DNA from: a virus
Length of the DNA: 33,907 nt
Virus record (IMG/VR): IMGVR_UViG_3300030382_002141
Span: 1 to 33,907 of that record
Reading direction: 5' to 3' (one strand)
Shown: piece by piece, positions 334 to 28,696 of the stretch
Numbering within the stretch: the stretch's first letter is position 1
Layout: each line of letters opens with the position of its first letter
Notes under the pieces: model-generated
Databases searched by the model: none
The model's input: the letters and a program-made list of their open reading frames with translations, nothing else
What the model was told of the DNA's origin: nothing
Program-made: the position numbers and the translations under genes

Positions 334-495
334 GTGTCAGAGATAGTTGATGTGTCGGAGAATAGTGTTGGTGGTGCGCCTCCTGAGGAGGAGCAGGTTG
401 GGTTGGAGGAGGTTTTTAGGTTTTTGTCGGAGCGGGGTCAGTTGGAGTGGCAGTTGGCGTATCAGCAGGCTGTGATTGCGCGGCTTCGTGCCTGA
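334..495 (+). CDS. Small acidic pre-terminase protein
   Basis: I chose the GTG at 334, giving 53 aa with an acidic, Pro/Glu-rich N-terminal half and a likely helix at the C-terminus (FRFLSERGQLEWQLAYQQ). A short AGG-containing sequence lies about 8 nt upstream. Small proteins of this build, with an acidic head and a coiled tail, often sit directly before the large terminase gene in actinophages, but none has a firm function. A small-terminase role is possible and unproven. The frame is open back to TTG 136; if that start were used, the product would be a 119-aa protein with two membrane segments. The 3' end overlaps the terminase start by 8 nt, suggesting coupled translation. Confidence 0.5.
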   Translation: MSEIVDVSENSVGGAPPEEEQVGLEEVFRFLSERGQLEWQLAYQQAVIARLRA

Positions 496-2182: not shown

Positions 2183-3990
2183 TGTATACGTTTGAAGAGA
2201 TCGTCGGCATTGTCCGAAAGCGGCAGGATTCGCAGTCGGCGTTGCTTACGAAGATGCGGGAGGTACGGGACAGGTATAACGGTGATTATGTTATTCCGTT
2301 GCCTTCTATGGATGAGGAACCGGTGTTGCCTCCGTTGACGCCTATGTTGATTACGGAAAATATTGATGCGGTCGCGCAGCGTGCCGCGTCGGTTATGCCG
2401 TTTATTGGGTGTCCTGCGATCAATCCGTCGAAGGAGCGCGGCAAGGAGTCGCGTGAGTGGGCGAATATTCGTCGTAAGGCTTTGGCTGCTACTTGGTACA
2501 GTTCGAAATATAAGGTGAAGTCTCGTCGCGCTTATCGGCATCTTGCTGGCTATGCGACTTCGTTGCTGATCGTGTCACCGGACTTTGACAACAATATGCC
2601 ACGCATCGATGTACGCGACCCGTTGAATGCGTTTCCAGAACCGCGCGCCTACGAAGACGTTGACCCGCCCCGTAATTGTGGATTCATTTACGGCAAGTCG
2701 GGTGACTGGCTGAGGGCGCATTATCCGGCGTCGCGGACAGAAAACGGTGGTCCTGTTGCCCGCGATTCGATTGCACGGCAGGATCTGTGGGATGTCGTGG
2801 AGTGGGTCGATGAGGAACACATCGTTGTCGGCATCATGGGTATGCGCCACGGCGGCTACTTTCAGGATTCACGCACCCACGCTGCGACGATAGAGTTGTC
2901 GCGTGTCCCGAACCGGGCGAACATGTCGTGCATTGTGACGCCGGGTCGTATCACGTTGGAGAAGGTCGCGTCGTCTGTGTCGAACGTGGTCGGCATGGTT
3001 GACTTGATGGCGAAGTTGATGGCCCTTGACTTGCTGGCGCAGGAGAAGGCAATCTTCCCTGATCGGTACATCATTGGCCGTTCTGGTCAGGTGCCGATGA
3101 TTGTCGGTGGCGAATGGAAAGACGGACGCGAAGGGCAGGTCAACATTTTGTTGGATGCCGAGTCGATTGGTGAGTTGCGTTCCACACCGGATGGTTCAAC
3201 GAGTCAGGCTATCGACAGGTTGGAACGAAACGCCCGCATCTCTACGGGCACTGTTCCGCAGATCGGTGGCGAAACGTATGGTGCGCTACGCACCGGACGC
3301 GGCATTGATGCGTTGATGGGTGCAGCGTTGGATCCTCGTATTCAGGAGTTGCAGGAAATCATGGAGGCACAGTTGCCTCATATCAATCAGGCAATTTTTG
3401 CGACTTACAAGGGTTACTGGGGGGCAAAGAACTATTCGATGTTCACAGGGTATGCTGGGGACTTCGGGCAGGTTGAGTTCACTCCCGATAAGCATTTCGA
3501 AACGTTCGACAATGTGGTGTCGCATTCGATACCGGGTGCCGACATTCAGGGAACGACGATCCAGTTGGGTCAGTTGTTGGGCATGAAGGGCATTTCGTTG
3601 CATACGTTCCGGACGAGGCATCCGTTTATCGATGATCCTGAGTTGGAGGGACGCAGGATTGATGAGGAAGCGTTGGAAGAGGCGGTGATGGCAGGGATTC
3701 AGCAGCAGGCGCTGTCTGGTCAGTTGCCTATCGTATATGTGGCAAAGATTGAGAAGTTCAGAAAGAAGGGTTTAGATATTTTTGAAGCAATTCAAGCGGC
3801 TGATGAAGAGATTCGTGAAGAGCAGGCAGAGACTGCGCCGCCGCCGGGAGAGGGGCAGGCTATCGCCCCGGAGCAGGCGTTGGGTTTGGCTGCCGGTCCA
3901 CAGGGGGCTGTAGCGGCCGGTGCGCCACCCGGTGGCGAATTCTCGCCGGGGGCTGCACAGCAACTTGTCGGCGCGTTGAGGGCAGGCTAG
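2182..3990 (+). CDS. Portal protein
   Basis: The 602-aa product fits the portal, the dodecameric ring at the capsid vertex through which DNA passes and to which terminase docks. It lies directly after terL, starts with GTG in a TAGTG overlap and has GGAG 8 nt upstream. Portal-like features are the N-terminal helical stretch with a YNGDY motif near residue 33, the LITENIDAVAQRAASVMPF segment that follows, and a long helical region around 370-410 (MGAALDPRIQELQEIMEAQL) expected for the stem and crown. The C-terminal 60 residues are Glu, then Pro/Gly/Ala-rich and probably disordered. Assignment rests on position, size and overall pattern, not a diagnostic motif. Codon use changes from G/T-rich (to about 2540) to more balanced afterwards. 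Confidence 0.85.
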   Translation: MYTFEEIVGIVRKRQDSQSALLTKMREVRDRYNGDYVIPLPSMDEEPVLPPLTPMLITENIDAVAQRAASVMPFIGCPAINPSKERGKESREWANIRRKALAATWYSSKYKVKSRRAYRHLAGYATSLLIVSPDFDNNMPRIDVRDPLNAFPEPRAYEDVDPPRNCGFIYGKSGDWLRAHYPASRTENGGPVARDSIARQDLWDVVEWVDEEHIVVGIMGMRHGGYFQDSRTHAATIELSRVPNRANMSCIVTPGRITLEKVASSVSNVVGMVDLMAKLMALDLLAQEKAIFPDRYIIGRSGQVPMIVGGEWKDGREGQVNILLDAESIGELRSTPDGSTSQAIDRLERNARISTGTVPQIGGETYGALRTGRGIDALMGAALDPRIQELQEIMEAQLPHINQAIFATYKGYWGAKNYSMFTGYAGDFGQVEFTPDKHFETFDNVVSHSIPGADIQGTTIQLGQLLGMKGISLHTFRTRHPFIDDPELEGRRIDEEALEEAVMAGIQQQALSGQLPIVYVAKIEKFRKKGLDIFEAIQAADEEIREEQAETAPPPGEGQAIAPEQALGLAAGPQGAVAAGAPPGGEFSPGAAQQLVGALRAG

Positions 3991-7300: not shown

Positions 7301-10300
7301 GCGTCCTGCCGTGCTGCTTCGATTGGGATATGTGGCACGTAACGGTGGTGAAGAATTGTTCTCATGGATGCTGCGGGAAGGGCCGTCAGGTTACGCCAAT
7401 CATCGTTTGGGACGCACCGCATTGGACATGGAAATCATGTGGGACGGGTATGGTCGAAAGGTATTGAAAGAGGTCAAACCTGAAGAAAGCCAGTCGATTC
7501 TGGCCCGTGGCCCGTTGCGTGTTTGGCGGTCCATCAACGAACTTTCCGGCGTTGGAGACTTTTCGCTTACGTTGAAAGGCATCGAAAAGGCGATGTTTGA
7601 TCCTGACAACATTAATCGATGGAAGTTTATGACCTCAGAGCAACGCATGGAAGCATTTGTGCAGGCTCGCAAGGCAGTGGTTCGTGAAACTGAACAGGGT
7701 TTCATTGCCCGTCAACTGCGGCATCGTTTCATGGAGGCTGAAGCAGTCGGCCAGAAACTATCCTATTTGTTTCACAAGGCAGGTCAACGTATTCCCGGCA
7801 AATGGGACACGGCCACAGGCAAACTTACGCAGGCAGATATTGCCCGTATGCTTGGCAAAAGATTTGATTCCAACCATGATGAGCGGGTACGACTTATCCG
7901 GTTGTCGATGACAAACCCGACAATCATGGATAGTTACATGCGTAACGTCTTGTCAACTTACGACACGTATACCAACTTTGAGGGTCTGCATCTTGATTCG
8001 ATGCTTCGCAAAGCCGGATTCGGTACTCCTACTCAACAGATGTTGAAGTTGCCACTCAACTACGAAAAGATGAAGTTGCAGCAAGTCGTTAACCGTGGAG
8101 CAGGAGATGTTGATGCTTGGGACAAGGGTGTCGCTGCAACGCAGCGCCTAACCTATCTGTCGGGTGATCCCGGCAGCAGGGGCGCATTGTTCGAAATGGC
8201 TCATTTTGTTTCCCCAGCGCAGGATGCCGTGGGGGGAGACTTGCATAGAACGATGGGTCGGTTGATAGATGCTGATCCGGAGTTGCGAACAGTGCGTGTT
8301 GCGGGTCGGGAAGAAACCGCAGAACGGCTTGTGGATGCTGAACCGGGTGTCGTTATCGAAACGTTGGAGGCTCCGTTGGGGCCGGGGAGTAATCGTGAGC
8401 GTGTTATTTATGATGCGGGGGTTCGGGATGCGCGTGACCGTGGCGACGATGTGATTGAAACGGTTGTTACGACTCCGGTTGAGGAGTATGCCCAAGTCCA
8501 AGATGTGACAATGAAATATGAGGGTGCGCTTAGGGCTGTCGGAAGAGGTAAGAAGACGGCAGATACGCGTCTCGCTAACCATTGGCGAGGGGGTCGTCCT
8601 TATGTCGGTCAGATTATTCGCTTTGTGGACAGTGAGGGTCGCGCTGTTTATGTTCGTGTCAAACGGGTTGAAACTTTGGAACGGACGCAGCGTGGACAGG
8701 CGTGGGTACGGGAGCGCACTATTCCCGGTCAGGATCTTCCGCAGCGCGAGGTTCACTATATTACGAATGCGGCAGAGGCACGGGGAGAAATTGCAGGCAT
8801 TTACCATATAGAAGAAACAGCAGATGAGACAGGCGAGATCGTTAGTCGTCGGGTTCAGGATCATCCGGGTGATGTCGGATACGAATTCAGAAACTGGAAT
8901 GTTCCCATTGAAGACGATCTACGTGTTGCCATGCGCCGTTACGAATCTGAAGGGTTTGAAACAACGGCTGAATATCAGAGCCACATTCGGGGCTTGACGC
9001 AACGTTCTGGAACAGACAGCATTATCCGTACCGAATTCGAAAAGATCGACTCGGTTGAACATACTACTGCAACGATTGTCGCTGGCGGTACTTCACAAAG
9101 CCAGCGCGTTATCCCCGGCAGCCCAGCAGTTTCCCCAATGGGGCCGTCGCAATTCATTTGGGAAGAACTTCATTACAACCATCCAAACTTTATTGAGAAA
9201 CTTTCCGAAGCATTTGACCAAGGTCATCTTCCCATGACACTATTTGATGATGCAAACGTTCAAGTATCTGGCACATGGGACGAAGTAGTCGAAAATCTGT
9301 TACTGCTTCTTCCAGAAGAGACACGCTACATCTGGCGCGACCTGTTCCTTCCCGGCGTCGCAGATACAGCAACCGGCCAAATTCTTTCAATAGGCAAACT
9401 AAACGACCGCATCCTTGCGTTCCTTCTCCACAATTCGAATCCTGCACGATTCACAAACGACTGGTCAGAGATCCTGACCCGGATGCACGCCGCATACAAG
9501 GCCGGATTGGGTACCGTGGAAGGACAACAGATGGCACGCTCTGCCGCACGCGCCAACATCGCCTATACCTCGCATGGTGATCGGATAAGCGACCCGCTAC
9601 CTCCCGGCTATTCACGCATCTTTATGCCGATGCTTCCGATTGAACATCGCGCACAACTTATTCAGATCCTTTCCGGTACAGATCCAACCAATGTCGGACG
9701 GGTTACATGGGTTGAAGAATTGGATCGGAGACTCAAGGATGCCTTCCATGCTGTCGGTCGTGACCATAATCCGACAATCGTTTCACATCTTCTTCATCCA
9801 CAGTACGGACCTGATCCGAGTGCGACAGCACTCAACTACTTCCGCGTATCGCAAGAATGGGCAGATTCTGGTGCGACTCACTTCCCACTTATTGTTGCAT
9901 CAGCCGACCCTGAGGTTGCAAAGATTGTAGGGGAGGTTCTGGATGAAATGCTTGGCCCGTTGCCACAACGGTCCCGTGTTGGGGCATTGCAGGTCAATTC
10001 GGAAACGTTGAATAATACTCCCGGTCAAATCTTAGAAGAACGTACTCTCTTCATGCCCGACTTGACTATCGAACAGACACAGGGTGGCATTGTTTCATCT
10101 ATCACCCATGCTGAACTTGGTGGCAGCATCGATCCGATCTTGGCGGATCCGTTTTACGGGTGGACAGATAGCGGTTCTGTCGCGTCATCGGCGTTCCCCG
10201 GCGGAAACGGTGTCAGCAAAGAATACGCATTCGGCATGTCTTCCCATCTGCTCAATCCCGGCTTGGAAGGTGTGGAAAGAATCCACTATATTGACGATGT

Positions 10301-12896
10301 TCCACAGGTTTCGAAACAGATGGTCTATCGGCATAAGCGTGATGGGCGAGAAGTCCAAATATCTGCGGCTGATGAGCGTCCAACAGAATGGTATGATACT
10401 GATGATTGGGAACTTGTCTCAGAACAGTGGGTGACAGGCCATTCGTTGCAGGACTGGATCGCAGATTCGGCATCACGAAACATACCTGAGATGGAACACT
10501 TCATGTCCGGGGTTGTGCAAGGGGTCCGCGAAGTTCAACATCCGTGGATCAGGGAAGTTTTGCAAACCAATAAGGTTCGTGAGGTCAGTGCGGAACGTGT
10601 CCTTCATTATGCTGAATGGGATCGGGCACCTAAGAATCTGTTGGCGATGATTCCTGCTACCAATGAGGCTGGTGGCAAAATGGAAGTCCCTGCCAAATTT
10701 TGGAAGACGTTGTTGCAGAACTGGTTTGAAGGTGTGGTCAATCCGATGATCGGTTCGATGGTGCGTGAACCCATGTTTCAGCATTATCTGTTGATCGGGA
10801 CACAACAGACTGCGATGGTGCGTCGCATCTATGATCTGCCAGTTCGGAAGACGACGCAGTTGAAGTCATGGTTTGGTGGTGCGGGTGCCCTTGATAATGA
10901 GGGTCAGTTTATGATTCCGGTATTGGAGGACTTCATAACGGGTGCTTGGTTAAATGTCACATCAGAGTCGCCTGTGATGCTGCGTCGTCTTGGGCATATT
11001 CTGGATAACGAGAACCAGTTTGCGTTCAGAAACTGGCTGGAAGAAGTCTTGGAGACAGCAGCAAAGCATGAGGTAGATGCGTATACCAAGTTGCTGCGTT
11101 TAACTGAAAATGATGAGGTGATGACAAACTTCTTCCAATGGGCAAAGAATCGCAAACTCGTAACTGAAGTACATCGTGATGTTTCATTGAAGCGGGCTTT
11201 CACGTTGACGGGTGCTTACATCGATGACCATCGAATCCGTTCACAGTTTCAGGAAATGGTCGGAACTCTGCTGCCGTTCTGGTTCGCGGAAGATAACTTC
11301 CTTCGCCGCATGGGTAGGGGTTTGCGGCACAATCCGAAGATGGTCCGCAACCTGCATCTGGTAATGATGGCCGGGGTTTATGGTGGTTTGATCCAAGAAG
11401 ATTCTCAAGGCGATAAGTGGTTGATCTATCCCGGTTCCGACATCGCAACTAACTTCATGTTGGAAATCGCTGACCATTTTCCGATTGTCAACAAGGTCGT
11501 CGGTGGCGGTTTGGGGGTTGTAGCGAACGAACCGTTGGCTTCAAGCCTCAACATCCTTCCCGGCTTCGATGCTGAACGCCTTGGACAACCCGGCTTCGGT
11601 CCCCTGTTGGCTATCCCGATCAATTGGATGGCGTCACGCGATCCGGCTATTCGCTCTATGTACGAGCCGAATCTGATCGGTGCCCGGTATGGTTCGGAGA
11701 AGGCGTCGGATGTGGTATTGGGGCCGATTATTCCAGCGGTGTTGGCACGTACAGCACAGGTGATTGGAATCAATTGGCCCGATACGCGTGCCCGCGACAA
11801 GGCAGCGATGGATGTGTTGCGACTGTTGGCGATTCAGGACAAGTTGCCGTCGCAGGAAGAGATCGTCGCATTGGAACAGCCGGAATTGTTCGAAGAACAT
11901 TTCTTGTCGAAGATCGACATGATGGCGCATCAGTATCAGATGCTGCAATCGTTGACTTGGTTCGGCGGGTTTTCGACAGGATCATTTTCGGAACTTCTTG
12001 TCCATGATGGTTGGGAATGGAGTAACGAGTTCCACGAATTGTTAGAGGCTGGTGTCCCGTATGAGGAGGCGTATCCGATGTGGATTGATCGTATCGAAAA
12101 GGATACGGGTAAGGAATTCAACCCGATGGAGTATTCGCCGTTCCATTCGTCTGCTACAACGAAGCGAACCTTCGGGGTGTTAGAGGCGACAGCGGAGGCT
12201 AACGAATGGTTGGTGAATAATCGTGCGTTTGTTGAGGATTATGGTTTGTCGGCAAGTTTCTTTATGCCAAGAAAGGTTGATTCTTCTGATGATAGGTATT
12301 CGTCGGAGGCGAAGCAGCGTGCTGTAAATTATGGATTGCGGGATTATAAGACCCCGGCTACGTTCTTGTCGGAATTGTATTATCAGGCTTCGTATCCGGA
12401 GTATCATCTACGCCGTATTTCTCATTTGGCTAGAAAGTATGCGTTGACGGCAGCCGGACTGCCAAGCACCAATGAGGATCGCAAGTGGACGGTTTGGTTT
12501 GATATGTGGTCGAATCGTAACCCGGTATTTTCTTCACGTATTTCTGGTAGCGATGCACAGGATCGTAGAGATGCTACGCTTGAGGAGTTTCGTCGTCTTC
12601 TGGCGGTTCCGTCGCTTATTCCTGATGGGTTGCATACGGAAGATTTGAAGGAGGCGATGCGTACAATCGTTGAGTTGGATAGTTTGTATGCAAGGTTGAA
12701 GAATGATCGTACTGCGTCGGCTCAGAGGCAGCGTGATTCGTTGAAGTATCTGTCGTACAAGTTTATGGAACGGTTTATTCAGGGGCGTCCGTGGTTGAAC
12801 GAAATGTATTATAGTGTATTCTTGCCACAGTTAGGCGATACGTGGTTGGCAAAGTTGCAAGCAGGAGTTATTGATGTACCTAGATTGGCGGCGTGA
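4347..12896 (+). CDS. Giant (2849 aa) polyvalent/ejection-type virion protein
   Basis: One uninterrupted 8.5-kb frame encodes a giant, largely helical protein, probably packaged in the virion and released into the cell with the DNA. That role is inferred from its position between portal and capsid genes, its size and its C-terminus. Recognisable parts: a conserved-looking stretch near residue 990 (WRPAVLLRLGYVARNGGEEL), a pattern I associate with giant actinophage proteins; an ASCH-like segment at about 1385-1480 (VTMKYEG, GKKTADTRL, VGQIIRFVDSEGRAVYVRV); and at about 2300-2480 a PFW...LRRMGRG...NP region followed by hydrophobic segments (VMMAGVYGGLI, VVGGGLGVVA), resembling the C-terminal associated domains of phage polyvalent proteins. 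No HExxH or lysozyme motif was found. The start ATG 4347 overlaps the previous gene by 8 nt and has no strong ribosome-binding site, so coupling is likely. Composition is patchy: 8260-8770 and 12180-12870 are G/T-rich, 9000-9900 is C/A-rich. Confidence 0.8.
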   Translation: MVDVRSPVWNGGTRGSGFNDEFYGRRLQLLYDSGARYLAPDTNSLVDLAAGNLSDMDMVDVFHRAQGQVGVLKMRDTFEGMPQLWQEGEFARLTRTTQNLMRASGYRLPVDEERDTNLVDRILEWEFPIIEGLFEDAGTPLRAALFPFRAMGKAIAVPTQKAWSDLNWMWDRVRQAGNTALGVHERTDWMQVPGAGFGAQVPTSWEFLNPGTWIESWNAVADEKDAYTDAALAQAEDLIGSTRVGLMRIYLRDGVEGVAEKFEEIGMASGKPRDQIARAFTEWYGSLGRPGETEAMEVLGGNRRDLSSSYVALYNRSNYGLPDVRPGTKPAILVGGVPALATEILLDPLTWAGTIWTKVIKAARMGLVAGSTRNQIYMWKRFTDFFREAEILGLSGKKGLTEYVARDPELAAFVAESGGNFVARTFLNIRAQSTAMNRFIERINETFRFMDEYDDTKRIVWDEWIDAGKTEFPIEELEAEILVRMGEVAHPVEQLLRDIPAIQGAWDHMLGWHRARRAQVAVVGVAGEAAEGQMRLLGGAGHRIRNVQIGDEVVEVLDEPLEAAKWAMRSPLPTLSTPDGYWQFLSESAEGMSALAGTMGGVDPAMMLLPRISQFGRAWVWGKKMVNKPIDFLNPSTEVTAEVGRLVSDYLADEFALVTTRVAELAVGLSKRIDEDMVARLVASPTQATAKALGLTLDDMEEILRIHKNMSGVVRQELFDQGMLDDLLNWYGEHGYQRFKRDPEKAAELIRRGQFAGEEVRLPGAPFSSARRAATNYYKSRIHPPGGVNDELSWLEHIKAIPGATAIGLSYYPARFARKLTTYVPKKGYMDVLDADNAVSEFTKLVEMGMMAHMPRTEIDRMIRLFATGNESQRWLVQTEFFMDFLGRSGALVNGGKHLEKFVDRFLRHADARYSFLSDDVVGFRRLNMRRAVIPGVEHAAEFSRLNVIPNYRQLGGLARHLSFYRKIGWGLHAPQIDNMFARTWRPAVLLRLGYVARNGGEELFSWMLREGPSGYANHRLGRTALDMEIMWDGYGRKVLKEVKPEESQSILARGPLRVWRSINELSGVGDFSLTLKGIEKAMFDPDNINRWKFMTSEQRMEAFVQARKAVVRETEQGFIARQLRHRFMEAEAVGQKLSYLFHKAGQRIPGKWDTATGKLTQADIARMLGKRFDSNHDERVRLIRLSMTNPTIMDSYMRNVLSTYDTYTNFEGLHLDSMLRKAGFGTPTQQMLKLPLNYEKMKLQQVVNRGAGDVDAWDKGVAATQRLTYLSGDPGSRGALFEMAHFVSPAQDAVGGDLHRTMGRLIDADPELRTVRVAGREETAERLVDAEPGVVIETLEAPLGPGSNRERVIYDAGVRDARDRGDDVIETVVTTPVEEYAQVQDVTMKYEGALRAVGRGKKTADTRLANHWRGGRPYVGQIIRFVDSEGRAVYVRVKRVETLERTQRGQAWVRERTIPGQDLPQREVHYITNAAEARGEIAGIYHIEETADETGEIVSRRVQDHPGDVGYEFRNWNVPIEDDLRVAMRRYESEGFETTAEYQSHIRGLTQRSGTDSIIRTEFEKIDSVEHTTATIVAGGTSQSQRVIPGSPAVSPMGPSQFIWEELHYNHPNFIEKLSEAFDQGHLPMTLFDDANVQVSGTWDEVVENLLLLLPEETRYIWRDLFLPGVADTATGQILSIGKLNDRILAFLLHNSNPARFTNDWSEILTRMHAAYKAGLGTVEGQQMARSAARANIAYTSHGDRISDPLPPGYSRIFMPMLPIEHRAQLIQILSGTDPTNVGRVTWVEELDRRLKDAFHAVGRDHNPTIVSHLLHPQYGPDPSATALNYFRVSQEWADSGATHFPLIVASADPEVAKIVGEVLDEMLGPLPQRSRVGALQVNSETLNNTPGQILEERTLFMPDLTIEQTQGGIVSSITHAELGGSIDPILADPFYGWTDSGSVASSAFPGGNGVSKEYAFGMSSHLLNPGLEGVERIHYIDDVPQVSKQMVYRHKRDGREVQISAADERPTEWYDTDDWELVSEQWVTGHSLQDWIADSASRNIPEMEHFMSGVVQGVREVQHPWIREVLQTNKVREVSAERVLHYAEWDRAPKNLLAMIPATNEAGGKMEVPAKFWKTLLQNWFEGVVNPMIGSMVREPMFQHYLLIGTQQTAMVRRIYDLPVRKTTQLKSWFGGAGALDNEGQFMIPVLEDFITGAWLNVTSESPVMLRRLGHILDNENQFAFRNWLEEVLETAAKHEVDAYTKLLRLTENDEVMTNFFQWAKNRKLVTEVHRDVSLKRAFTLTGAYIDDHRIRSQFQEMVGTLLPFWFAEDNFLRRMGRGLRHNPKMVRNLHLVMMAGVYGGLIQEDSQGDKWLIYPGSDIATNFMLEIADHFPIVNKVVGGGLGVVANEPLASSLNILPGFDAERLGQPGFGPLLAIPINWMASRDPAIRSMYEPNLIGARYGSEKASDVVLGPIIPAVLARTAQVIGINWPDTRARDKAAMDVLRLLAIQDKLPSQEEIVALEQPELFEEHFLSKIDMMAHQYQMLQSLTWFGGFSTGSFSELLVHDGWEWSNEFHELLEAGVPYEEAYPMWIDRIEKDTGKEFNPMEYSPFHSSATTKRTFGVLEATAEANEWLVNNRAFVEDYGLSASFFMPRKVDSSDDRYSSEAKQRAVNYGLRDYKTPATFLSELYYQASYPEYHLRRISHLARKYALTAAGLPSTNEDRKWTVWFDMWSNRNPVFSSRISGSDAQDRRDATLEEFRRLLAVPSLIPDGLHTEDLKEAMRTIVELDSLYARLKNDRTASAQRQRDSLKYLSYKFMERFIQGRPWLNEMYYSVFLPQLGDTWLAKLQAGVIDVPRLAA

Positions 12897-14896
12897 TGGC
12901 AGAAGATATTGATCCTGAATTACCTCAAGATTCTTTTCCTGACATCCTTGGCGAAGGTACGACGCCACCGTTCGACCCGGCTGGCGACGACGACTTTAAC
13001 TTTGCGGAGTTTGCAACGATGCTTGGTGGGTTTACAGGTATAGTGCGAGAAGGCAATGCGCCGCCTGAGCAGGTGCGACGCAATCAGGCGATTAAGCATA
13101 TCCATTGGGAGGAAGGTGGCCTGACGCGGGCGGGAAACAAGTTTACTAATTGGGTACTTGGTTTGAATTTGTGGGCGGAGGATATTCAGAAGGTTGGTAC
13201 GGGCGCAGGGCTTGGGGGTCTTATCGAATATTACGGCGTAGCACCACAGGGTGGTGATCCAACGATACCGGGCGGAACGCAGATCCTTGACTTTACTAAC
13301 GACGCGGATCAGGTCGCATTCGGTGGATGGTTGCAAAATTATGGATGGAAGTGGATTCCAGAATTTCGAGACATTATAAAACAGGCTGTTACCCGTGTAA
13401 TCGAAGCAGAAGATCCTGAGAAGCGACCTATCGAAGACGATATTACGAGAGCCATTGTAGAGGGTGGAGTGACTGGACTGGATCCGGAGGAGGTAGTACC
13501 TGAAGCAGAAGAAGATCTAGGATACACCCCGGAATTGATTCAAGGGTTGATGGCAGAATTTGGTGATCTTATCTCTGACGATGATGTTTTCACTGATAAG
13601 GGAACACTTCTTCAGCAGGCATTCGAAGAAGCCGCCGGTTGGTACACGGCACGACTCGCCAGCGAATCCAGATGGATTCTGGTTACTAAAGCACCGAACG
13701 ATGCTATTCTGGGTAAAACCAATGTCGCGTTTGTTCTCAGTTTCGACGGTACCCCATACGGGGATGTGAACACGGTTATGGATCTGTTCTCTGGCGGACA
13801 GTTGGGGCCACCCCGTGCCGACGCATTTCTTCACGATCTGTGGCGTAACGATCCAAACAAATTTCGACAATTGCAGCAGGAATTGTACGCTTTGGGGTAC
13901 ATGGATGATCCGATAGCAAATTTGGGAGTTGAGCCATTGTGGGGTGATATGTCGACTACGGGGCCGGATGTGACTCTTCAGGCATTCCATGATCTACAGG
14001 TCGATATGCTTGCTGAATCAGTTAAGGCAGAACGAAATTTGGAGTCGCTTAGGCCGTTGGATATTCGTGCCAGCCTTGTCGCAAAGCGCGCTCGGGCGGC
14101 AGGAGAACATGCTACAACGGAGCAGCAACTCCGCACTGAGGTTGCTAATGAAATCGGTGGCAGGGCGTTACAGGCCGTGGAGGATCTTGGTCAGCAGATC
14201 ACTCCGAAGGGTCAGCGTGAAATCATTTCGCGTGTCAACGAGTTGGTGGGTGAAATGTCAGGTGGTCAGCAGGAGCGGTTGTTTGGCGAGGGTGGAACGG
14301 AGCGGGAAGTTGCGTTGGCTGAAGCAGTTTTGGCAGAATTCTATGGGATGCCTGATTGGGCTGAAGAAGTCAGATTTGGTCACCATGATTCGGCTGCGTC
14401 GTATTTGAATTATGCACGCAACGTGGGTGCTGTATCTGAAAAGGAATATCAGATGTTGGAGTCGGGAACATTGACGCCGAATAATTATGGTCGTGATAAG
14501 AATGATGCTGGTATTCGTAAAGATATTGCGACGGCAAACTTTTTGAAGTTCCTCAACCATGAGGGTACCCGTAATGTGGCGGGCGATCAGGTATTGGATT
14601 TGGCTGAGTCGGTATCGAATGAACAGATTGAGCGTGCGTTGGTGATGTATGCGAACACGGTTGGTTTGGCTAATTTGGATGTGGCGAATGCTCCGGATTA
14701 CATGTCGTTGGTTCGTCGGGCACGCAATACGTTGCCTGCGTTGCATGAGCCGAATCAGGAGTTGATTGAGATGGGTGCTGGTGTGGTGGAGAAGATGGGG
14801 ATTGAGCGTTCTACGCCGGTTGTTGCGTTGGATGCGATTGCTCGCAGCATGTCTGGTGTGGGTAGGGTACAGCAATCACGGATTCCAAATGTCTGA
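12896..14896 (+). CDS. Internal/virion-associated protein with possible peptidoglycan-binding-like segment
   Basis: The 666-aa protein lies between two giant genes. ATG 12896 is preferred over the in-frame GTG at 12893 because it forms a TGATG overlap with the upstream stop. The N-terminus is acidic and Pro-rich. At about residues 322-370 the sequence FRQLQQELYALGYMDDP, followed by a Gly-rich stretch, a TTGPDVTLQAF segment and a second LQ, resembles a degenerate peptidoglycan_binding_1 repeat (LQ..L..LGY...G..G..T..A...FQ). The remainder is helical with no catalytic motif I recognise. A virion role is inferred from operon position. The final 500 bases (14380-14860) switch to TTG/GAT-rich codons. 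The last 8 nt overlap the next gene. Confidence 0.75.
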   Translation: MAEDIDPELPQDSFPDILGEGTTPPFDPAGDDDFNFAEFATMLGGFTGIVREGNAPPEQVRRNQAIKHIHWEEGGLTRAGNKFTNWVLGLNLWAEDIQKVGTGAGLGGLIEYYGVAPQGGDPTIPGGTQILDFTNDADQVAFGGWLQNYGWKWIPEFRDIIKQAVTRVIEAEDPEKRPIEDDITRAIVEGGVTGLDPEEVVPEAEEDLGYTPELIQGLMAEFGDLISDDDVFTDKGTLLQQAFEEAAGWYTARLASESRWILVTKAPNDAILGKTNVAFVLSFDGTPYGDVNTVMDLFSGGQLGPPRADAFLHDLWRNDPNKFRQLQQELYALGYMDDPIANLGVEPLWGDMSTTGPDVTLQAFHDLQVDMLAESVKAERNLESLRPLDIRASLVAKRARAAGEHATTEQQLRTEVANEIGGRALQAVEDLGQQITPKGQREIISRVNELVGEMSGGQQERLFGEGGTEREVALAEAVLAEFYGMPDWAEEVRFGHHDSAASYLNYARNVGAVSEKEYQMLESGTLTPNNYGRDKNDAGIRKDIATANFLKFLNHEGTRNVAGDQVLDLAESVSNEQIERALVMYANTVGLANLDVANAPDYMSLVRRARNTLPALHEPNQELIEMGAGVVEKMGIERSTPVVALDAIARSMSGVGRVQQSRIPNV

Positions 14897-17800: not shown

Positions 17801-20800
17801 ACTCAAAGAAGCATACTCTGAAACAGGAGAGCCGTTTGTCGCGTGGCGACCTGAACCTGATCCTTCAGATTATGTTACGGAACGTGAATATTCTCGCGCA
17901 CATAATAAGTGGGAAGAGGAGATGTGGCCGGATTCCGATCCACCCGATATGCCTACTGGTGGCGAATCCCGTGGTCTTAATCTGACCCGTGATCCTGCAT
18001 TACCTGACAGTTCCTACGAAACGTTTGGTCAGGAGATGCTTGATGACGTTTTTGCTATTGTCAGACAGCACAAAGACCCAACTATTCCGCGTCAAACTGG
18101 GGAAGATGCATTAGAACTTGCACTCAGGAATCAATGGGATGCGTTATCTCCTGAAGATCAACACTCGGCCTATCGTTTTTATCTGGGAGAGATTGGTGAG
18201 CAGTGGCGACCGTATGATGTTGATAATCTTTCCGCAGATGAAATATCTGAGTTTATTACCGCGACTGTGCGTTGGCATCAAACAGGTACTCATCTTACTA
18301 GAGAAAATCAGGATGCTTTGTATCGCCGTGATTGGTTGGATCTTGCCGAATCGGAGCGTGTGCATATAGAAGAGTGGTGGAGGCGTATGCATCCAGAGCA
18401 GGCGTCGGGCCATGAGACTGATCCGTTGGATCAGATTGAAGATATTGCTAATGTAATGCGTTGGTGGAATGAGGGCGGCGGGTCAGGACTTGCTTCACCT
18501 ACAGAGGGTCCGCCGGGTACTCCGGGTGCGCCTCAGGCGGGAGAACTTCCCGAAGATGTAGAAGGTTTCCTTACCCCTGAACAGTTGGAAGCCATACGGG
18601 AAGACATAATGGATCAGATCTTCCTTGATGAAACAGGACTTCATGCAGAATTTCTTCATATGGGGCTTGGTGAACTAAGCGAACGTACATACATCGAAGA
18701 ACTAATGCGCTTGGCGATGGAGGCACAAGCCGCAGGAAAAGAAGAAATCACTTTTCTCAACAAGGTCTGGCGTGCAGACGAACTAGAAAAAACTCTCTAC
18801 ATACGGGTTCTCAACACCCTCTCCGATGCAGAACATTTAGAATTCCAAACACACATGATCGAATCAGCACAATCGGCTGCCCGTGGTGGCCGCATGGATT
18901 ACGACATGACCGGACAAGAATTACTGGCTGCCCTCTATTCCCTGTACCCATCTAAGTTCCCTGATTTCCCTGACTTAGAGGGCGGCATAACTATGACAAT
19001 GGATGATCCGCCAGAAGGGTACGAGAACCTTCCTCCAGAAGAAGTAGAACGGGTGCATCAGGAACTTATCGATTCAGGGATTTTGGATACGACCCCTCAA
19101 CAGTTGTTCGAAAGGATAGGCGGCTATGAGGTTAGGGGCCGTATCGGTGAGGGAGAAACAATTGCTGGAATGAGTGTCCCTGATGAGCAGGGGCAGCGTT
19201 GGCTACGCATAGATCCGGATCGTATTGTTCAGGTGTGGCGTGATGGTTTGGCAAGTTATGAGTCTCCAGCGATGGATGCGTTGTTGGAGATGGGGGTCAA
19301 TTTGGAGGAGTTTCAGGGGTTGCTTCGGCGCGGGTTTCGTGTCGATTTGTTGACGAACTCTGAGGGGTTCATGGAGATAGTTAATAGTTGGAGGGGTGGT
19401 CGTCCTGTGTCTGGGAGGGGGTTGCGGTTGACTGGTGAGTATGCGTTGATGGGGTTTATTTGGGAGCATGAGATGCAGCATTTCATGTTGCGGCATGGTT
19501 TGGATGGGAGGGAGCGTGGTTTGCGGGAGGTGCCTGCGAATGAGGCTGCGTTGGAGAGTTTGGGTTTGGAGCCTGTAATACAAAGAGAGGAGTACGACTA
19601 TTCGATGGAGGCAGAAGCACGGAACGAAGCGTCGTTTGAAGAGTCGGGAGAACTTATTGATCCAAGGGAGTTGGGGGATCCTGAGTTGGAACCTGAGGTA
19701 ACGGCTTCACCCGAAGGCGGCGACGATCTGTTGGAATACGCATGGCGTGTCCACGGTGAAACAAGCCCGAATATAGTACGGGGAGATTCCCAAGCCCCAT
19801 ATTCAAATGAACTTTCACAATTCTATCTTCCGGGACCGATGCGTGCATTTGGAGAACCGAATCCGGTTAGGATCGAACCTACTGGAGAAGAAACTGCTCT
19901 ATATCCTACTGGTCAAGCGGAACCACGTTCGGCTGGTATCTACGGTAGCGGATCGATTTCATATGCAATCGATCCGAATCTGCCCGTCATCACCGTACAC
20001 GGCGGCAACAACCAAAATCCGGTTCTATCCAATTTCTATGAAGCACCGTTTGAATTCGAGGGACACACATTCGCAAGCGCAGAAGGCGCTTATCATGCAT
20101 TCAAACGTGGACGATATGTACGCGGCTTTGAACATCTAGGTGGCGCGGCGGCTCATGCGCGGGCGCGAAGAATAAATGTTCCGACTGATCAATCGATTAC
20201 GGATGATTTGATGGATCGTATTTTGGCCGCAAAGTTCCAACAGGTTCCTGAGTTTGCGGAAGAGTTGTTGGCTACGGGGCTGGCACGAATCATACACCCG
20301 GTTCGTGATCCGCATTGGGGTACGGATGGGGATGATGCGTTTGCTCAGGCGTTGATGAATTTGCGGGACTTTGAAATGTTCCGTAGGGAGCATGGGTATG
20401 ATCCTGTTGCGGGTGAGGCGGATTTGGAGGATTGGCTCGAATCATACACCCGGTTCGTGACCAGCATTGATAGGCATGCGGATCCACCGGAGGTATCCGT
20501 TCGTACACCAGTAGAGGTCGAACCACTTCGGCCAATAAGGGATGTCTACCGTGACATGATGGCAACACTTACGTTGCGTTTAGACGACGTTTTCGGATTC
20601 CCCCCTATGGATCAATTGATAATGATTGGTTATGAGAATGAGGGGGAGTTAGGTCTTAGCGGAGTAGTTCATTCTACGCAGTCGGGGTTCGCGGAGTGGA
20701 CGGATAATATCGATCTCATTTCTGTCAATCCAAGGGGGGCGTTGGACTGGCTTGAATGGCATCGGATGGGGGATGCGACCCGGCAGATGAGTAACGAAGC

Positions 20801-22889
20801 ACAAATGTTTATAGAGGAAATAGAAAATATGTGGTTGGGGACCCCAGTTCATAGGCAGGGGGGTGATAATGGGTGGCTAGCAAGGAGGATTGAAAACGGT
20901 ATTAGGTCTTTGGATAAGATCGTTGCATATGTGGCAGAACACCCGGAAGTGGGTATTCCTCAACCCCCGTCGCCTGAAGAACGAGCGCGTCAGGTTGGGG
21001 AGATGGGTACTACTCCGGATAGTCCCGGATCTGAACCCGGATTTGATGCACACCGTAATGTTCCCGAAGGCGAAGATTTTCCTTGGGACGATCTGTTTCG
21101 TGGGCGTCTGGGAGAGTCGGATGAACCTATCATGGATCCGGTGTCGGCAGCAAATTGGGATTCGGCTGTGGTATTACCTACTGGGGCTGAAACACCTGCT
21201 CAGTGGTGGAGTCGTCTTAATGGACTAGAACAACGTTTTGTTATGAATGAACTGGATCCGTTCGGGCAGCCTGCCAGTGAGGGTTTCGCTTCACATGGGG
21301 TAGGAACTGGAATGCGGCCAGAACCTACTCCGGGGGGCGGCTATTTCGTCGGTGGCGAGAGACAAACTGAACCATTTTGGGATCCCATTTCGATGCGTGG
21401 GGTTTCACGGAGCGGGCGAACTGGGCCTCCGCGTGGAACTCCCAATTCAGAGGGTGTCGATTATAACGACGTTATTATGCAAGAATACCGATGGCTTGTG
21501 AGGGCCGATAGCCCCACTGGGGCTGTAGTTCGGGGAACTTTTGAAGCCCCATATCCTGAAGAAATAGAACGTTATATACGTGGTGGGACTGATCCTGATC
21601 CGGTTAGGATCGATGATATACCCGATACCCGTTCCAGTTTTGGCGAAAGACGACAGTCTAGTCAAGGACCGGGATCACAGTATCTGTGGAGTGGTAATAC
21701 TTTCGGATCGTTTGGTCCGAGCGGTGCAGGAAATAGTGTTTCAGACTTGCATGTTGCACAGATTCTTGGCAATCAATCCCTTGCTAGTATTGAAGGTGAT
21801 GCTTTAGCCCCAATTGGGCAACTTGCTTATCACGAACTTGCGTATCGTGGTTACGATGTGAAAAGTCTTGGGGTTGAAGGTACGTTTAGTGAACGTGACG
21901 TATTCGATTTGATTGGTGTCGATATTGACGATATTGCCGATATCCCGCGTCTAGTTGAGGAAAGCAGGACGATAGCACAGGGTATTGCTGATTCAGCAAC
22001 GCGCGGTATGGCTGAGGCGGAACGCTGGGATATGCTTGAAAGCATGTCGCAGCATATGCAGGATCCCAGCACTGTGGGAGATGCTCAGATACAAGATTTC
22101 TATAATAGGATTGGGATTGCCGGATCTGAACCCGGACCTGATGCACACCGCAATTATCCCGTCGGCGATGATCCGGACGTTCCTTATTATTCTGATCCGA
22201 CTGATGTTTATGGAGGACCGCTTGATCCAAGTATGCCCGGATCAGAGTTGATTGGTCTAGAGCAGGCTCGTGATCTTCAAGTCCATACAATTATTTCTGG
22301 TGGACAAGTCGGAGCAGATCAAGCCGGATGGGAAGTCGCCGCCGATCTTGGCTTTGAAACCGGTGGGCATATGCCAAGCCTATTTAGAACACACTTCGGT
22401 GATGATCCGGACGTTGGCGCACTTTATGGCGCTACTGAACATATATCTCGTAGATGGGAACCACGTACCCGAGAGAATGTTGCGAATTCTGATGCGACTA
22501 TTATCTTCACTAGAAATCTTCCAGATGAAGGCGTTTGGTTCGAAGGTCCGGGATTGCTCGAACCTCTACCACGTAGAATTTATTCGATGATTGCTGGGAA
22601 TTCTCGCGGTTCTCGTCTGACGATAGACATGGCACGGGGCGAGGCAGCGGCGAGGGGCGTCTCACCGATAGAGGGAGGTCGTCCATTTATTGTTGTGAGT
22701 GGAGATAGCATCGAAATTCGTCATACGATTCGTGAATTCCTACTTGCATATAATGTTGAGATACTTAATGTGGCTGGCCCAAGAGGCATGAGTAGAACCA
22801 GTTCAACTGATGAAGTTGCATTGGAAGAATCACAACAATATCAACAAACTATTCGTGAATTCCTTAACAGGGTGTTCACGGGAGAGTAG
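14889..22889 (+). CDS. Giant (2666 aa) polyvalent protein: zincin-like, NADAR and cpYpsA SLOG domains
   Basis: ATG 14889 is the likely start (8-nt overlap with the previous gene); the frame is open 123 nt further upstream, but only as a shadow of that gene. Residues 1-700 are largely unrecognised. About 700-1220 contains four copies of an EGPPGTP-type linker. HEMQH at 1527-1531, followed by NEAALESL with E1552, fits a gluzincin-type zinc metallopeptidase site. About 1700-1840 is a NADAR domain (NPVLSNFYEAPFEFEGHTF, then AEGAYHAFK, AAKFQQVPEFAEELLATG, HWGTDGDD, LMNLRDFE). About 2465-2666 is a circularly permuted YpsA SLOG domain (IISGGQVGADQAGWEVA, RTRENVANSDATIIFTRN, GSRLTIDMA, LNVAGPRG). Two GSEPGxDAHRN linkers flank the stretch before it. 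NADAR proteins act as N-glycosidases on ADP-ribosyl or related substrates; SLOG domains bind nucleotides. Delivery with the phage DNA is inferred. Confidence 0.85.
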   Translation: MSDDEVTQQILQTMAADEAALKNSEEGQRRERERLSSALSDSERDREEQVPDTAGAAKVEEWFRGTLDFVPGAGHPLMANTTRTTADRALVGSSRTEFRPPRGEIAWNDKHKDAMWDLRLWAFQAARNMFPDSLYQEGGAGDYYRGDADRILQASVGFGLEALDEFLAGTLGMSENDLLLSEWAGEPEQNWYRRWTNPVLEAIGEVVVAPIRGAENLLNLLPGEDGGFAMGGERLTGTGEGKLQGTDFRGQFGYEAPHPGGTGISPFEQQMPGHDTRSWWWGEPGDSEIGDNLVPHTWQGLADMVAIGLVFPYLFPGANAAMGAALSRLNPVRALYNAGRLPNWLMLAMRERVAAVQAYQAKWGRLPEQRDFWNRYQAGEYFPEAGAFGVESSIPQGYAGIITPDNPTGRLTPTQVANMKPGEIFTADFPVGPAGVGQTERAFGQKPFADALPQGPVPAPFRPMSESGTGPIFGSTYNPTGRFMDVFEGRIGNIPTKQIPDDIAREIIHTPKLELNLETSLRDFWQNRWAELSYKERISVTEAAIARAYELNPNAVQLDERWFGEPIEIFSFWDDKPNIVDHVTQYGRDTARFFRGGAEEHSLRAHGFRNSLPRIWANWMTRWGGALLTNEEFQGILIAADQRNIDRWHMPPASNIFWGQEPSTTDFLNMTPEQRSKNMTPEQLSDYVQRHFPGHEDFVSQYVAPPEGPPGTPARESQGFPTALTPEEQAQDLWRLSPEDWTRISDRLSPAERGQVADAFRAIHGWLGGEAEMLSWYEIQRVAGFSQEEAATIAEGPPGTPAGPEAEPPPPRERPTISMHSPEEIRARQEAEARRLAGGVNYGNNLAKEMADQGMPVTPAEFQEALIEYYSDQFDMIHPMEGLEGPPGLGSPEVVVTEIGEGHPVLNKVDWMEARIDEFYEMHPTSTQTGGALSEFGDYPAEWDHVLSPEDRAARLEGHPDAEAIERRIRQLKEAYSETGEPFVAWRPEPDPSDYVTEREYSRAHNKWEEEMWPDSDPPDMPTGGESRGLNLTRDPALPDSSYETFGQEMLDDVFAIVRQHKDPTIPRQTGEDALELALRNQWDALSPEDQHSAYRFYLGEIGEQWRPYDVDNLSADEISEFITATVRWHQTGTHLTRENQDALYRRDWLDLAESERVHIEEWWRRMHPEQASGHETDPLDQIEDIANVMRWWNEGGGSGLASPTEGPPGTPGAPQAGELPEDVEGFLTPEQLEAIREDIMDQIFLDETGLHAEFLHMGLGELSERTYIEELMRLAMEAQAAGKEEITFLNKVWRADELEKTLYIRVLNTLSDAEHLEFQTHMIESAQSAARGGRMDYDMTGQELLAALYSLYPSKFPDFPDLEGGITMTMDDPPEGYENLPPEEVERVHQELIDSGILDTTPQQLFERIGGYEVRGRIGEGETIAGMSVPDEQGQRWLRIDPDRIVQVWRDGLASYESPAMDALLEMGVNLEEFQGLLRRGFRVDLLTNSEGFMEIVNSWRGGRPVSGRGLRLTGEYALMGFIWEHEMQHFMLRHGLDGRERGLREVPANEAALESLGLEPVIQREEYDYSMEAEARNEASFEESGELIDPRELGDPELEPEVTASPEGGDDLLEYAWRVHGETSPNIVRGDSQAPYSNELSQFYLPGPMRAFGEPNPVRIEPTGEETALYPTGQAEPRSAGIYGSGSISYAIDPNLPVITVHGGNNQNPVLSNFYEAPFEFEGHTFASAEGAYHAFKRGRYVRGFEHLGGAAAHARARRINVPTDQSITDDLMDRILAAKFQQVPEFAEELLATGLARIIHPVRDPHWGTDGDDAFAQALMNLRDFEMFRREHGYDPVAGEADLEDWLESYTRFVTSIDRHADPPEVSVRTPVEVEPLRPIRDVYRDMMATLTLRLDDVFGFPPMDQLIMIGYENEGELGLSGVVHSTQSGFAEWTDNIDLISVNPRGALDWLEWHRMGDATRQMSNEAQMFIEEIENMWLGTPVHRQGGDNGWLARRIENGIRSLDKIVAYVAEHPEVGIPQPPSPEERARQVGEMGTTPDSPGSEPGFDAHRNVPEGEDFPWDDLFRGRLGESDEPIMDPVSAANWDSAVVLPTGAETPAQWWSRLNGLEQRFVMNELDPFGQPASEGFASHGVGTGMRPEPTPGGGYFVGGERQTEPFWDPISMRGVSRSGRTGPPRGTPNSEGVDYNDVIMQEYRWLVRADSPTGAVVRGTFEAPYPEEIERYIRGGTDPDPVRIDDIPDTRSSFGERRQSSQGPGSQYLWSGNTFGSFGPSGAGNSVSDLHVAQILGNQSLASIEGDALAPIGQLAYHELAYRGYDVKSLGVEGTFSERDVFDLIGVDIDDIADIPRLVEESRTIAQGIADSATRGMAEAERWDMLESMSQHMQDPSTVGDAQIQDFYNRIGIAGSEPGPDAHRNYPVGDDPDVPYYSDPTDVYGGPLDPSMPGSELIGLEQARDLQVHTIISGGQVGADQAGWEVAADLGFETGGHMPSLFRTHFGDDPDVGALYGATEHISRRWEPRTRENVANSDATIIFTRNLPDEGVWFEGPGLLEPLPRRIYSMIAGNSRGSRLTIDMARGEAAARGVSPIEGGRPFIVVSGDSIEIRHTIREFLLAYNVEILNVAGPRGMSRTSSTDEVALEESQQYQQTIREFLNRVFTGE
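16892..16936 (+). repeat. Short tandem repeat encoding NMTPEQ
   Basis: An 18-nt exact repeat with a 27-nt period (16892-16909 and 16919-16936) encodes NMTPEQ twice in the giant polyvalent protein. It is in frame and looks like a recent small duplication. Confidence 0.8.
17007..18527 (+). repeat. Four dispersed copies of an EGPPGTP linker
   Basis: Copies lie at 17007-17030, 17271-17294, 17538-17558 and 18504-18527. The first two are identical over 24 nt; the other two are diverged (EGPPGLG, EGPPGTPG). All are in frame and Gly/Pro-rich, like flexible or collagen-like spacers between folded domains. Confidence 0.85.
20282..20469 (+). repeat. 36-bp direct repeat read in two frames
   Basis: Copies at 20282-20317 and 20434-20469 match at 33 of 36 positions, including 23 consecutive identical bases. 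The spacing of 152 nt is not a multiple of three, so copy one encodes ARIIHPVRD and copy two encodes LESYTRFVT. The first copy lies inside the NADAR domain, the second just after it. Confidence 0.85.
21025..22154 (+). repeat. GSEPGxDAHRN linker duplicated
   Basis: A 35-nt near-identical repeat (21025-21059 and 22120-22154, 1095 nt apart, same frame) encodes SGSEPGFDAHRN and AGSEPGPDAHRN in the giant polyvalent protein. It brackets a segment of about 365 residues just before the SLOG domain. Confidence 0.85.
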
Positions 22890-22898
22890 GATAGACTC

Positions 22899-23333
22899 AT
22901 GCAAGCACTTTGGCGACCATTCTCAGACCGACTCAACGAACTATTCTCTGCTGCCCCCAAGCCCCCAACCCTCACTGCGGGCTTTATGAGCAACACCGAA
23001 TATCAAGAGTTGTATCATCAGGTAAAACGTATGAATCCTAAGGCAGCGGAACGTCTTGGCCTTCCCGGCGAGTCACCGTTTTTGCGTGGCCGTGCAGCAG
23101 TTCTTGAATATCCTGATGCGGAGACTGAGGAGTGGGTTAAGACCAACGCACCTAGATATGGGGTTCTTATTGATTCAGAGTTTTCTTGGTTGGCTCGCCC
23201 GACGGGTGATAGGTTTAAGGGCGCAGGAGCGAATCGTCTTGCGTCTGGTTCTGATTTGTTGGAGGCTGCGATGGGTTCGATGTTTTATGAGAATGGAGTG
23301 AACGATGGTTCAGCGATCACGCCTAGCGAATAG
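22899..23333 (+). CDS. Unknown 144-aa protein
   Basis: ATG 22899 lies 9 nt after the giant gene's stop, with GGAGAG about 15 nt upstream. The product has a short amphipathic N-terminus (LWRPFSDRLNELFS), a Pro-rich spacer and a mixed alpha/beta body; no family is recognised. The gene ends inside the next one (29-nt overlap). From about 23200 the codons become G/T-rich, as at the 3' ends of several neighbours. Position suggests a minor virion or internal protein, but nothing in the sequence proves it. Confidence 0.65.
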   Translation: MQALWRPFSDRLNELFSAAPKPPTLTAGFMSNTEYQELYHQVKRMNPKAAERLGLPGESPFLRGRAAVLEYPDAETEEWVKTNAPRYGVLIDSEFSWLARPTGDRFKGAGANRLASGSDLLEAAMGSMFYENGVNDGSAITPSE

Positions 23334-25916: not shown

Positions 25917-26002
25917 TGCCGAAGTATCAGACAGCAGGTTCGAAAGGAAAGGCTAAGAAGGTGGCGTATCAGAAGGTTTCTCGAAAGAAAAAGAGGAAGT
26001 AA
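25916..26002 (+). CDS. 28-residue highly basic peptide
   Basis: A small ORF sits exactly between two genes with TAATG overlaps at both ends (start 25916, stop 26000-26002). It encodes 28 residues, of which about half are Lys or Arg, ending SRKKKRK. The perfect fit into the overlap chain and a preceding GGGGGTAGCAAGG stretch support translation. No known family is recognised. The charge suggests nucleic-acid or membrane-phosphate contact. It could alternatively act mainly to couple translation into the holin gene. It ends with an AGAGGAAG stretch that serves as the holin ribosome-binding site. Confidence 0.6.
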   Translation: MPKYQTAGSKGKAKKVAYQKVSRKKKRK

Positions 26003-26190
26003 TGTTTACCAGAGATCTACTAGAACGGGTAGTAGCAACGTTTCTTCAAGCGTTCCTCGCTATCTATATTGTTGGCTCAACCGACACGCTCAAAACCGCA
26101 GGCATTGCGGGAGCGACGGCTGTGCTTAGTCTCGTCAAGGGCGTGGTTGCTACACGCTTTGGTGACGGGTCCGCTTCTGCTGCCTCGTAA
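26002..26190 (+). CDS. Holin (r1t-type)
   Basis: This 62-aa membrane protein has two hydrophobic segments: about residues 11-25 (ATFLQAFLAIYIVGS) and about 32-50 (TAGIAGATAVLSLVKGVVA). The opening FTRDLLERVVATFLQAFLA followed by a second helix with LSLVKG is the pattern of r1t-type holins, common in actinophages. Holins accumulate in the cytoplasmic membrane and open it at a set time so endolysin can reach the wall. A good ribosome-binding sequence (AGAGGAAG) precedes ATG 26002. No endolysin gene is visible in the window, so the lysis cassette is incomplete here or split. Confidence 0.8.
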   Translation: MFTRDLLERVVATFLQAFLAIYIVGSTDTLKTAGIAGATAVLSLVKGVVATRFGDGSASAAS

Positions 26191-26408: not shown

Positions 26409-26536
26409 TATGATAGAGTTATTACTGGATCGCCGTGAGCCCCCGATGGGCCGGTGGCTGTGAGCCCCTTGGGCCGGTCAGTATCCATCCATTAGGACTT
26501 CGCACGCTCCTGATGAGTAACATAGTGGCAGACAGA

Positions 26537-26567: not shown

Positions 26568-26580
26568 AGTCATCCACCCG

Positions 26581-26586: not shown

Positions 26587-26623
26587 ACCTCCACTATGCG
26601 CGATTCGGTAAAGGAGAGACACC

Positions 26624-27493: not shown

Positions 27494-28696
27494 ATGACTA
27501 TTGTAGGATTTTCAAGTGCGGCACCCGGCGCGACCTCATATGATTTGGCCGTCGGTGTTAAGATCAATATGGACGAACTCATTTATATGATTTCGCCTAT
27601 TGATTCACCACTGATCAACGGCATTGGTACTGACGGGCGACAGTTGCTTGCCAGTTCCCCTGTCGATCAGACCACTTTCAAGTGGATGGACGAGGAACTT
27701 TTGCTTCCCCGTGCACAGACCACAGATACAGGAGCCGCAGGAGCAGGCACTACGACTATCACAGTCTCAGCCGCCGACTCTTACAAGTTCCAATTAGACG
27801 ATCTTCTCACCATTGGTGAGGAGGGCGGTATCGCTAACGGTGCTGTGAAAAGGGTTACCGGTATTAACACCACTACAGGTGTTATTACTGTAGTTGATTG
27901 GCAGAACGGGTCAGTTTGGCCCGCCACAACGTCCCATGCCACAACGGGTCAGGACACAGTTATTTGTGTCGGCTCTGCATTGCCTGAAGGTTCAGATCCG
28001 GGTGATTTCCGGGCGGCTGACCGGACGATCCGCGAAAACTATACGCAGATCTTTGGACCCACAAAGGTTCAGATGTCTCGTACAGAGCAGCAGATCACCC
28101 GGTATGGCGTGAGCGATGAGTTTGCAAAGCAGTTGTATGGTCGTTCCGTTGAGAACGTCATCACCCGTGAGCAGGCGTACCTTTATGGCAAGCCTTACGA
28201 TGATACTTCAAACAAGCGCCGGTCAACCGGTGGCTTGATGAACTTCATCACCACCAATACGGATGCGACCAACACTAGTTTGGACGTAGCCGAGTTGCAG
28301 ACGTTGATGCAGAAATGCTATAACGCAGGCGGTGTTCCCGATCTTCTGATCGCTAACCCGGCTACGTTCGCAGATCTGAACGCCGTCGAATCTAGCAGCC
28401 GGGTACGTACTGTCATTGATGATCCGCGCCGTGGCCGTGTGCCTGTTACCTCTGTGTTCCATGAGTTTGGTGAGACACAGATGGTACGGAACCGTTGGTG
28501 CCATTCTGAGACTGCTTTTGTAGTCAAAAAGGACAATGTCCAGCGTCGGGTCATGCAGCCCCTCATAGTTGAGGCGCTTGCTAAGACAGGTGACTCCGAT
28601 TCGGTCATGCTTCTGTGTGAGGAAGGGCTTCAGGTGAAGGGTGAGTCTCATATGGCGAGGTTCACTAACCTGACTGATTACACGGATACACCGTAG
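27494..28696 (+). CDS. Major capsid protein, SU10/DUF5309-like HK97 fold
   Basis: This 400-aa shell protein forms the hexamers and pentamers of the head. The N-terminal arm with MISPIDSPLINGIG and the TTFKWMDEELL stretch, a Thr/Gly-rich beta insertion at residues about 80-150, the FGPTKVQMSRTEQQITRYG segment and a C-terminal VTSVFHEFGETQMVRNRW segment fit the DUF5309/SU10 major capsid family. The first 12 or so residues may be a flexible arm. TAGGAGAAAGAC gives a strong ribosome-binding site before ATG 27494, as expected for the most abundant product. A strong terminator follows the gene, separating it from the connector gene. Confidence 0.88.
   Translation: MTIVGFSSAAPGATSYDLAVGVKINMDELIYMISPIDSPLINGIGTDGRQLLASSPVDQTTFKWMDEELLLPRAQTTDTGAAGAGTTTITVSAADSYKFQLDDLLTIGEEGGIANGAVKRVTGINTTTGVITVVDWQNGSVWPATTSHATTGQDTVICVGSALPEGSDPGDFRAADRTIRENYTQIFGPTKVQMSRTEQQITRYGVSDEFAKQLYGRSVENVITREQAYLYGKPYDDTSNKRRSTGGLMNFITTNTDATNTSLDVAELQTLMQKCYNAGGVPDLLIANPATFADLNAVESSSRVRTVIDDPRRGRVPVTSVFHEFGETQMVRNRWCHSETAFVVKKDNVQRRVMQPLIVEALAKTGDSDSVMLLCEEGLQVKGESHMARFTNLTDYTDTP

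Follow-up and report, generated by a model that had tools for sequence, protein, structure and literature searches.

Polyvalent proteins of phages include multidomain proteins of more than 2000 aa in which HExxH domains recur, the N4 virion RNA polymerase being one example (PMC5512222). Giant virion proteins that are ejected into the host are established for N4, whose virion RNA polymerase is a podovirus giant of ~3500 aa (PMC12633501) fused to an HExxH domain (PMC5512222). Fusions of SLOG and NADAR domains in DNA viruses have been published together with a proposed role in ADP-ribose (ADPr) counter-defence (Iyer et al. 2022, PMC9503650). There, viral NADAR, SLOG and Macro domains, fused together, are proposed to counter host ADPr signals, viral SLOG domains are predicted to act as ligand binders or enzymes in NAD/ADPr signalling, and the likely packaging of NADAR proteins is also already in print (PMC9503650). 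The systems described are typically standalone, and NADAR was reported from 0.3% of small phages. The assayed phage-type NADAR is T4 gp30.3, which removes guanosine-ADPr in vitro (PMC11125620), on both DNA and RNA (PMC11125620; PMC11833690), and which gave no rescue from DarT1 toxicity in vivo (PMC11125620). Mutagenesis of the E. coli C7 NADAR showed that E88, K95 and D171 are essential, the last of these being a histidine in phage NADARs (PMC11543638).

The window, by which we mean the whole 33,907-nucleotide stretch analysed here, is part of a 34,620-base IMG/VR virus record. Its terminase, portal and major capsid protein (MCP) genes share one gene run with giant protein B, which combines HExxH, NADAR and cpYpsA regions (Table 1); the gene map thus agrees with the original prediction of a polyvalent-type protein with NADAR and SLOG domains in one chain between portal and capsid genes. 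The giant B ORF starts at an ATG and has an 8-base overlap with the preceding 667-aa gene; a longer in-frame ORF starts with TTG at 14766. About 700 bases (25917-26623) that follow the 507-aa gene and precede the next ORF listed for that strand hold no clear gene. Adenine_deam_C is matched weakly by the 144-aa protein (E 0.002, short of the cut-off), probably by chance. Giant protein A matched nothing in Pfam, PHROG or the PDB, and its identification as a known RNA polymerase or lysozyme protein was rejected on that ground.

Table 1. Features of the window and the evidence for their assignment
Feature	Positions	Strand	Evidence or remark
Terminase large subunit	476..2182	+	phrog_38, 1.3e-46
Portal protein	2182..3990	+	phrog_104, E 6.5e-10
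120-aa protein	between portal and giant A		
Giant protein A, 2849 aa	4347..12896	+	orthologues in other phages bear the same cargo domains
Giant A central insertion region, residues ~1304-1601	8256..9149	+	alignment blocks flanking the junction
Conserved 667-aa protein	12893..14896	+	lies between giants A and B
Giant protein B, 2666 aa	14889..22889	+	bears HExxH, NADAR and cpYpsA domains
HExxH domain, residues ~1440-1580, motif IWEHEMQHFMLR	19206..19628	+	zincin-like by motif only
NADAR domain, residues ~1699-1829, phage (gp30.3) type	19983..20375	+	profile, structure and active-site evidence
NADAR E1732 (= E88 of E. coli C7 NADAR)	20082..20084	+	32/32 homologues
NADAR K1739 (= K95 of C7 NADAR)	20103..20105	+	31/32 homologues; the remaining one R
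NADAR H1803, histidine marking phage NADARs	20295..20297	+	28/32 homologues
C-terminal cpYpsA SLOG domain, residues 2465-2666	22281..22886	+	PF12694, 67.7 bits (cut-off 26.2)
144-aa protein	22899..23333	+	homologous to part of the small protein filling that slot in relatives
365-aa and 507-aa proteins	between 144-aa protein and major capsid protein		
Major capsid protein	27494..28696	+	phrog_1328, E 1.7e-46
Further late genes and tail-fibre-like ORF	after major capsid protein		

The NADAR-like domain that had been read from the letters at about residues 1700-1840 is real, and its core does begin at base ~19983. In profile searches the PF08719 match within giant B (23.8-29.2 bits) stays under the Pfam cut-off of 35.1, which is a score threshold and not a defining trait of the NADAR fold, while a relative, G017, clears it with 46.6 bits in one search and 41.7 bits in another. 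The window domain is also matched by phrog_1017 (1.1e-10), and a profile built from the window and its relatives (six homologues) found YbiA (2B3W, 6.5e-12) and the NADAR structure 8BAU (1.7e-7) in the PDB. Structure prediction gave a YbiA-like fold, the AlphaFold2 model having a mean pLDDT of 87.6 with most of the core at 92-98; against 350,542 PDB chains it matched only the two solved NADAR structures, 2B3W (1.6e-6) and 8BAU (2.8e-5), at E<=0.001, by which a chance match is ruled out. E1732, K1739 and H1803 align with the active-site E, K and H positions of T4 gp30.3 and are conserved among homologues; the window NADAR, as judged from this alignment, is therefore of the phage type with an intact active site. 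T4 gp30.3 itself differs in being a standalone protein of ~152 aa, with 25% identity to the window domain (PMC11125620, PMC11543638).

The second predicted domain, a cpYpsA SLOG from about residue 2465 to the C-terminus, scores far over its Pfam cut-off and ends at the stop codon, and its profile matches 3IMK (7.8e-22). The GGQxGxD, GG, T..N and LNxAGxR motifs are all present in the window and are kept at those positions in 16-17 of 17 homologues. Both folds, with their active-site or core residues intact, are supported. Our literature search for a biochemical study of cpYpsA found none. Just upstream of NADAR lies an HExxH domain, absent from the original prediction and homologous to segments of the relatives' cargo. 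Its motif, WEHEMQH in the window, lies within a predicted helix (92-109; model pLDDT 76) and is retained in G005/G053, G072 and G029 and missing in the G003 group. The domain had no match in Pfam and its model no fold match in the PDB at E<=0.001; its status as a confirmed zincin-type metallopeptidase was accordingly dropped, leaving the motif as its sole basis. It may process the polyprotein.

Relatives were gathered as MCP-linked, giant-A-linked and NADAR-linked contigs and then mapped. Searches of viral contigs with the single window NADAR and cpYpsA sequences returned no relatives, and those of the window were reached only via alignments from MCP-linked relatives. The group is an uncultured, marine and podovirus-like one. 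The only contig of the genome collections found to encode giant A (a 2553-aa ORF) is a 17-kb viral contig, PBPE01000058.1, that was binned in a Red Sea Dehalococcoidia MAG; as binning of such a contig is unreliable, this points no more than weakly to Chloroflexota from the sea as hosts. Giant A orthologues share N-terminal (~1300 aa) and C-terminal (~1150 aa) blocks, which nearly abut (1253/1263) in a compact form of 2519 aa (G016). All sequence between the two blocks in the other orthologues is an insertion at this fixed central point; its length is about 300 aa in the window and about 1100-2000 aa in relatives that bear cargo. The insertion holds NADAR, cpYpsA, an AlkB-like 2OG-Fe(II) oxygenase or DUF7831 in at least 17 contigs, of which some are near-identical, e.g. 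G003 and G019 (G003, G006, G010, G017, G019, G022-G026, G045, G046, G048, G050, G062, G073 and G075), and the partial contigs G063, G064, G071 and G072 likewise carry cargo domains there. None of these four domains was found in any compact giant A (<=2849 aa). The AlkB-like domain and DUF7831 stand beside NADAR within giant A of G003 (L066:8171-12478) and others, and a NADAR-like domain was also seen in a 5845-aa ORF of another phage contig, G078 (L255:2458-19995).

In three contigs (the window, G001 and G029) NADAR and cpYpsA are borne not by giant A but by a distinct protein encoded close to the 667-aa gene, a location here called the second slot. The stretch from giant A through the 507-aa homologue is complete in 29 contigs. 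In all 12 of these with a giant A of at least 3551 aa, the extra protein in the second slot does not exceed 457 aa, and in 13 of the 16 with a giant A of at most 2849 aa the second slot has a gene of at least 860 aa (the exceptions being G049, G058 and G059); giant A of G053 is intermediate at 3189 aa. Large size at one site thus usually goes with small size at the other (Spearman rho -0.53, p 0.003, the p-value being only indicative since the contigs are related). In the giant A tree the second-slot phages included, the window and G029, fall in separate clades, and the sister of the window is G026 (100/100), which has cpYpsA inside its giant A. In the cpYpsA tree the second-slot copy of G001 clusters with the giant A copies of G026 and G017 (96/90), and at least two slot changes are forced by the starred branches. 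These placements in the two trees show that cargo has moved between giant A and the second-slot protein; the NADAR tree does not separate a single from a multiple origin of the second-slot copies. The N-terminus of giant B matches that of G001 weakly and, via a two-sequence profile, that of G057 (1.3e-5), with no match to the other second-slot groups and no conserved anchor beyond G001/G057; that giant B may be the cargo-loaded form of a conserved second-slot anchor protein is therefore a tentative idea.

This exchange of cargo bears on whether giant B is packaged at all. Giant B could be a factor for assembly or scaffolding that acts late and is not packaged, with its enzyme domains at work in the producing cell, given that packaging is argued from gene context and that a search for a cultured relative through giant A among 50,697 phage records produced no match. 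Such a role is improbable, as the domains that giant B carries are interchangeable with those within giant A, and podoviruses have known giant ejected proteins (PMC12633501). The reading that we prefer, and to which we give about even confidence, is that giant B is a virion-delivered polyvalent protein with exchangeable cargo that blunts NAD+/ADP-ribose immunity early in infection. Encoded among virion genes, it would probably be packaged and ejected with the genome, as its gene context and the analogy with N4 suggest (PMC12633501). Like the N4 virion RNA polymerase, it is a giant protein with an HExxH domain; it differs from that protein in that no RNA polymerase domain was detected in the window and in that its own ejection is a prediction.

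The physical link between NADAR and SLOG that the original prediction had drawn recurs in giant phage proteins; the general idea of such a fused system was already published. Among 80 viral cpYpsA loci, both domains occur in 10 of 23 cpYpsA proteins of at least 1000 aa and in 0 of 56 of at most 400 aa, the former figure being biased upward, since 6 of the 10 come from the window's phage group and some were search seeds. Outside the group, the two domains share giant proteins in G068, where a PIF1/UvrD-like helicase is also present, in L299/L314 and in L322. In five contigs (G024, G025, G048, G050 and G063) cpYpsA splits NADAR into an N-terminal and a C-terminal half, always in the same NADAR loop (model positions about 80 to 85-92), and in G072 (L246:6871-13887) DUF7831 is found inside NADAR close to the loop that accepts cpYpsA. 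The NADAR histidine is lost in the G048/G050/G063 group. A stronger version of the preferred reading, in which NADAR and cpYpsA form one composite enzyme that senses and cleaves ADP-ribose, preloaded in the virion as movable cargo of either of two ejected giants and disarming ADPr immunity before phage expression, strikes us as possible but unlikely.

The company that NADAR keeps also allows for a genome-repair kit, in which NADAR, SLOG and, in the relatives, the AlkB-like domain would mend damaged or modified bases of the phage genome or transcripts at entry, with no specific relation to immunity. The AlkB-like domain adjoins NADAR in many relatives, NADAR works on DNA and RNA bases, and E. 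coli ybiA lies within a LexA-controlled operon (PMC11125620). We nonetheless regard repair as an unlikely, if serious, alternative, because a Pfam search for AlkB in the window protein found none, cpYpsA and ART-PolyVal are not repair domains, and the partner domains vary between phages, as expected of conflict cargo. ART-PolyVal is present in the second-slot protein of the sister phage G051 (L215:15638-19621; 33.6 bits, cut-off 31.2) and matches more weakly in those of G020 (L079:8220-13163) and G001, the last of which also has NADAR and cpYpsA. It is thereby conceivable that NADAR and SLOG, in concert with the same-slot ADP-ribosyltransferases (ARTs) of sister phages, adjust ADP-ribosylation for which the phage itself is responsible and do not reverse a defence; this form of host manipulation seems decidedly doubtful, as a search of the window protein gave no ART at E<=1 and the combination with NADAR and cpYpsA is confined to G001, where the ART match is below cut-off.

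If giant B does act against host immunity, its cargo would reverse or sense an ADP-ribose-based defence. The NADAR domain would probably hydrolyse an N-glycosidic ADP-ribose bond, with bases of the incoming DNA or of early RNA, or a soluble ADPr-derived signal, as candidate targets, and the cpYpsA SLOG domain is predicted to bind or cleave a related nucleotide signal; acting jointly, the two would weaken host immunity that relies on NAD+/ADP-ribose at an early stage of infection. Guanine-ADPr made by DarT, which the original prediction had mentioned, is only one substrate option: T4 gp30.3 cleaves guanosine-ADPr in vitro, and the claim is weaker for DarT1 in particular because the T4 NADAR did not protect against that toxin in published tests (PMC11125620).

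Giant B resembles the polyvalent proteins of Iyer et al. 2017 (PMC5512222) in its multidomain make-up, length, position near portal and terminase genes, HExxH domain and ART-PolyVal siblings, whereas NADAR, SLOG and AlkB are absent from the text of that study and the cargo here is found in one or the other of two giants from a single virion module. In comparison with the systems of Iyer et al. 2022 (PMC9503650), the domains lie inside proteins of 1.5-4.5 kaa in phages whose known sequence spans about 50 kb or less, and in some the SLOG domain is nested within NADAR. As far as our searches show, what is new is the presence of NADAR/SLOG cargo in giant proteins of small podovirus-like phages, its alternation between two virion-module proteins, and the nesting of SLOG or DUF7831 inside NADAR. 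Counter-defence has been studied mostly as small, early-expressed proteins; a giant that arrives with the virion and bears swappable cargo for handling nucleotides, if this reading is true, would act ahead of gene expression. The series from a separate gene, to cargo inside giant A, to SLOG nested in NADAR allows the proposed functional link between the two domains to be tested directly, and unknown cargo domains in this uncultured marine phage group can be sought with the help of the fixed insertion points.
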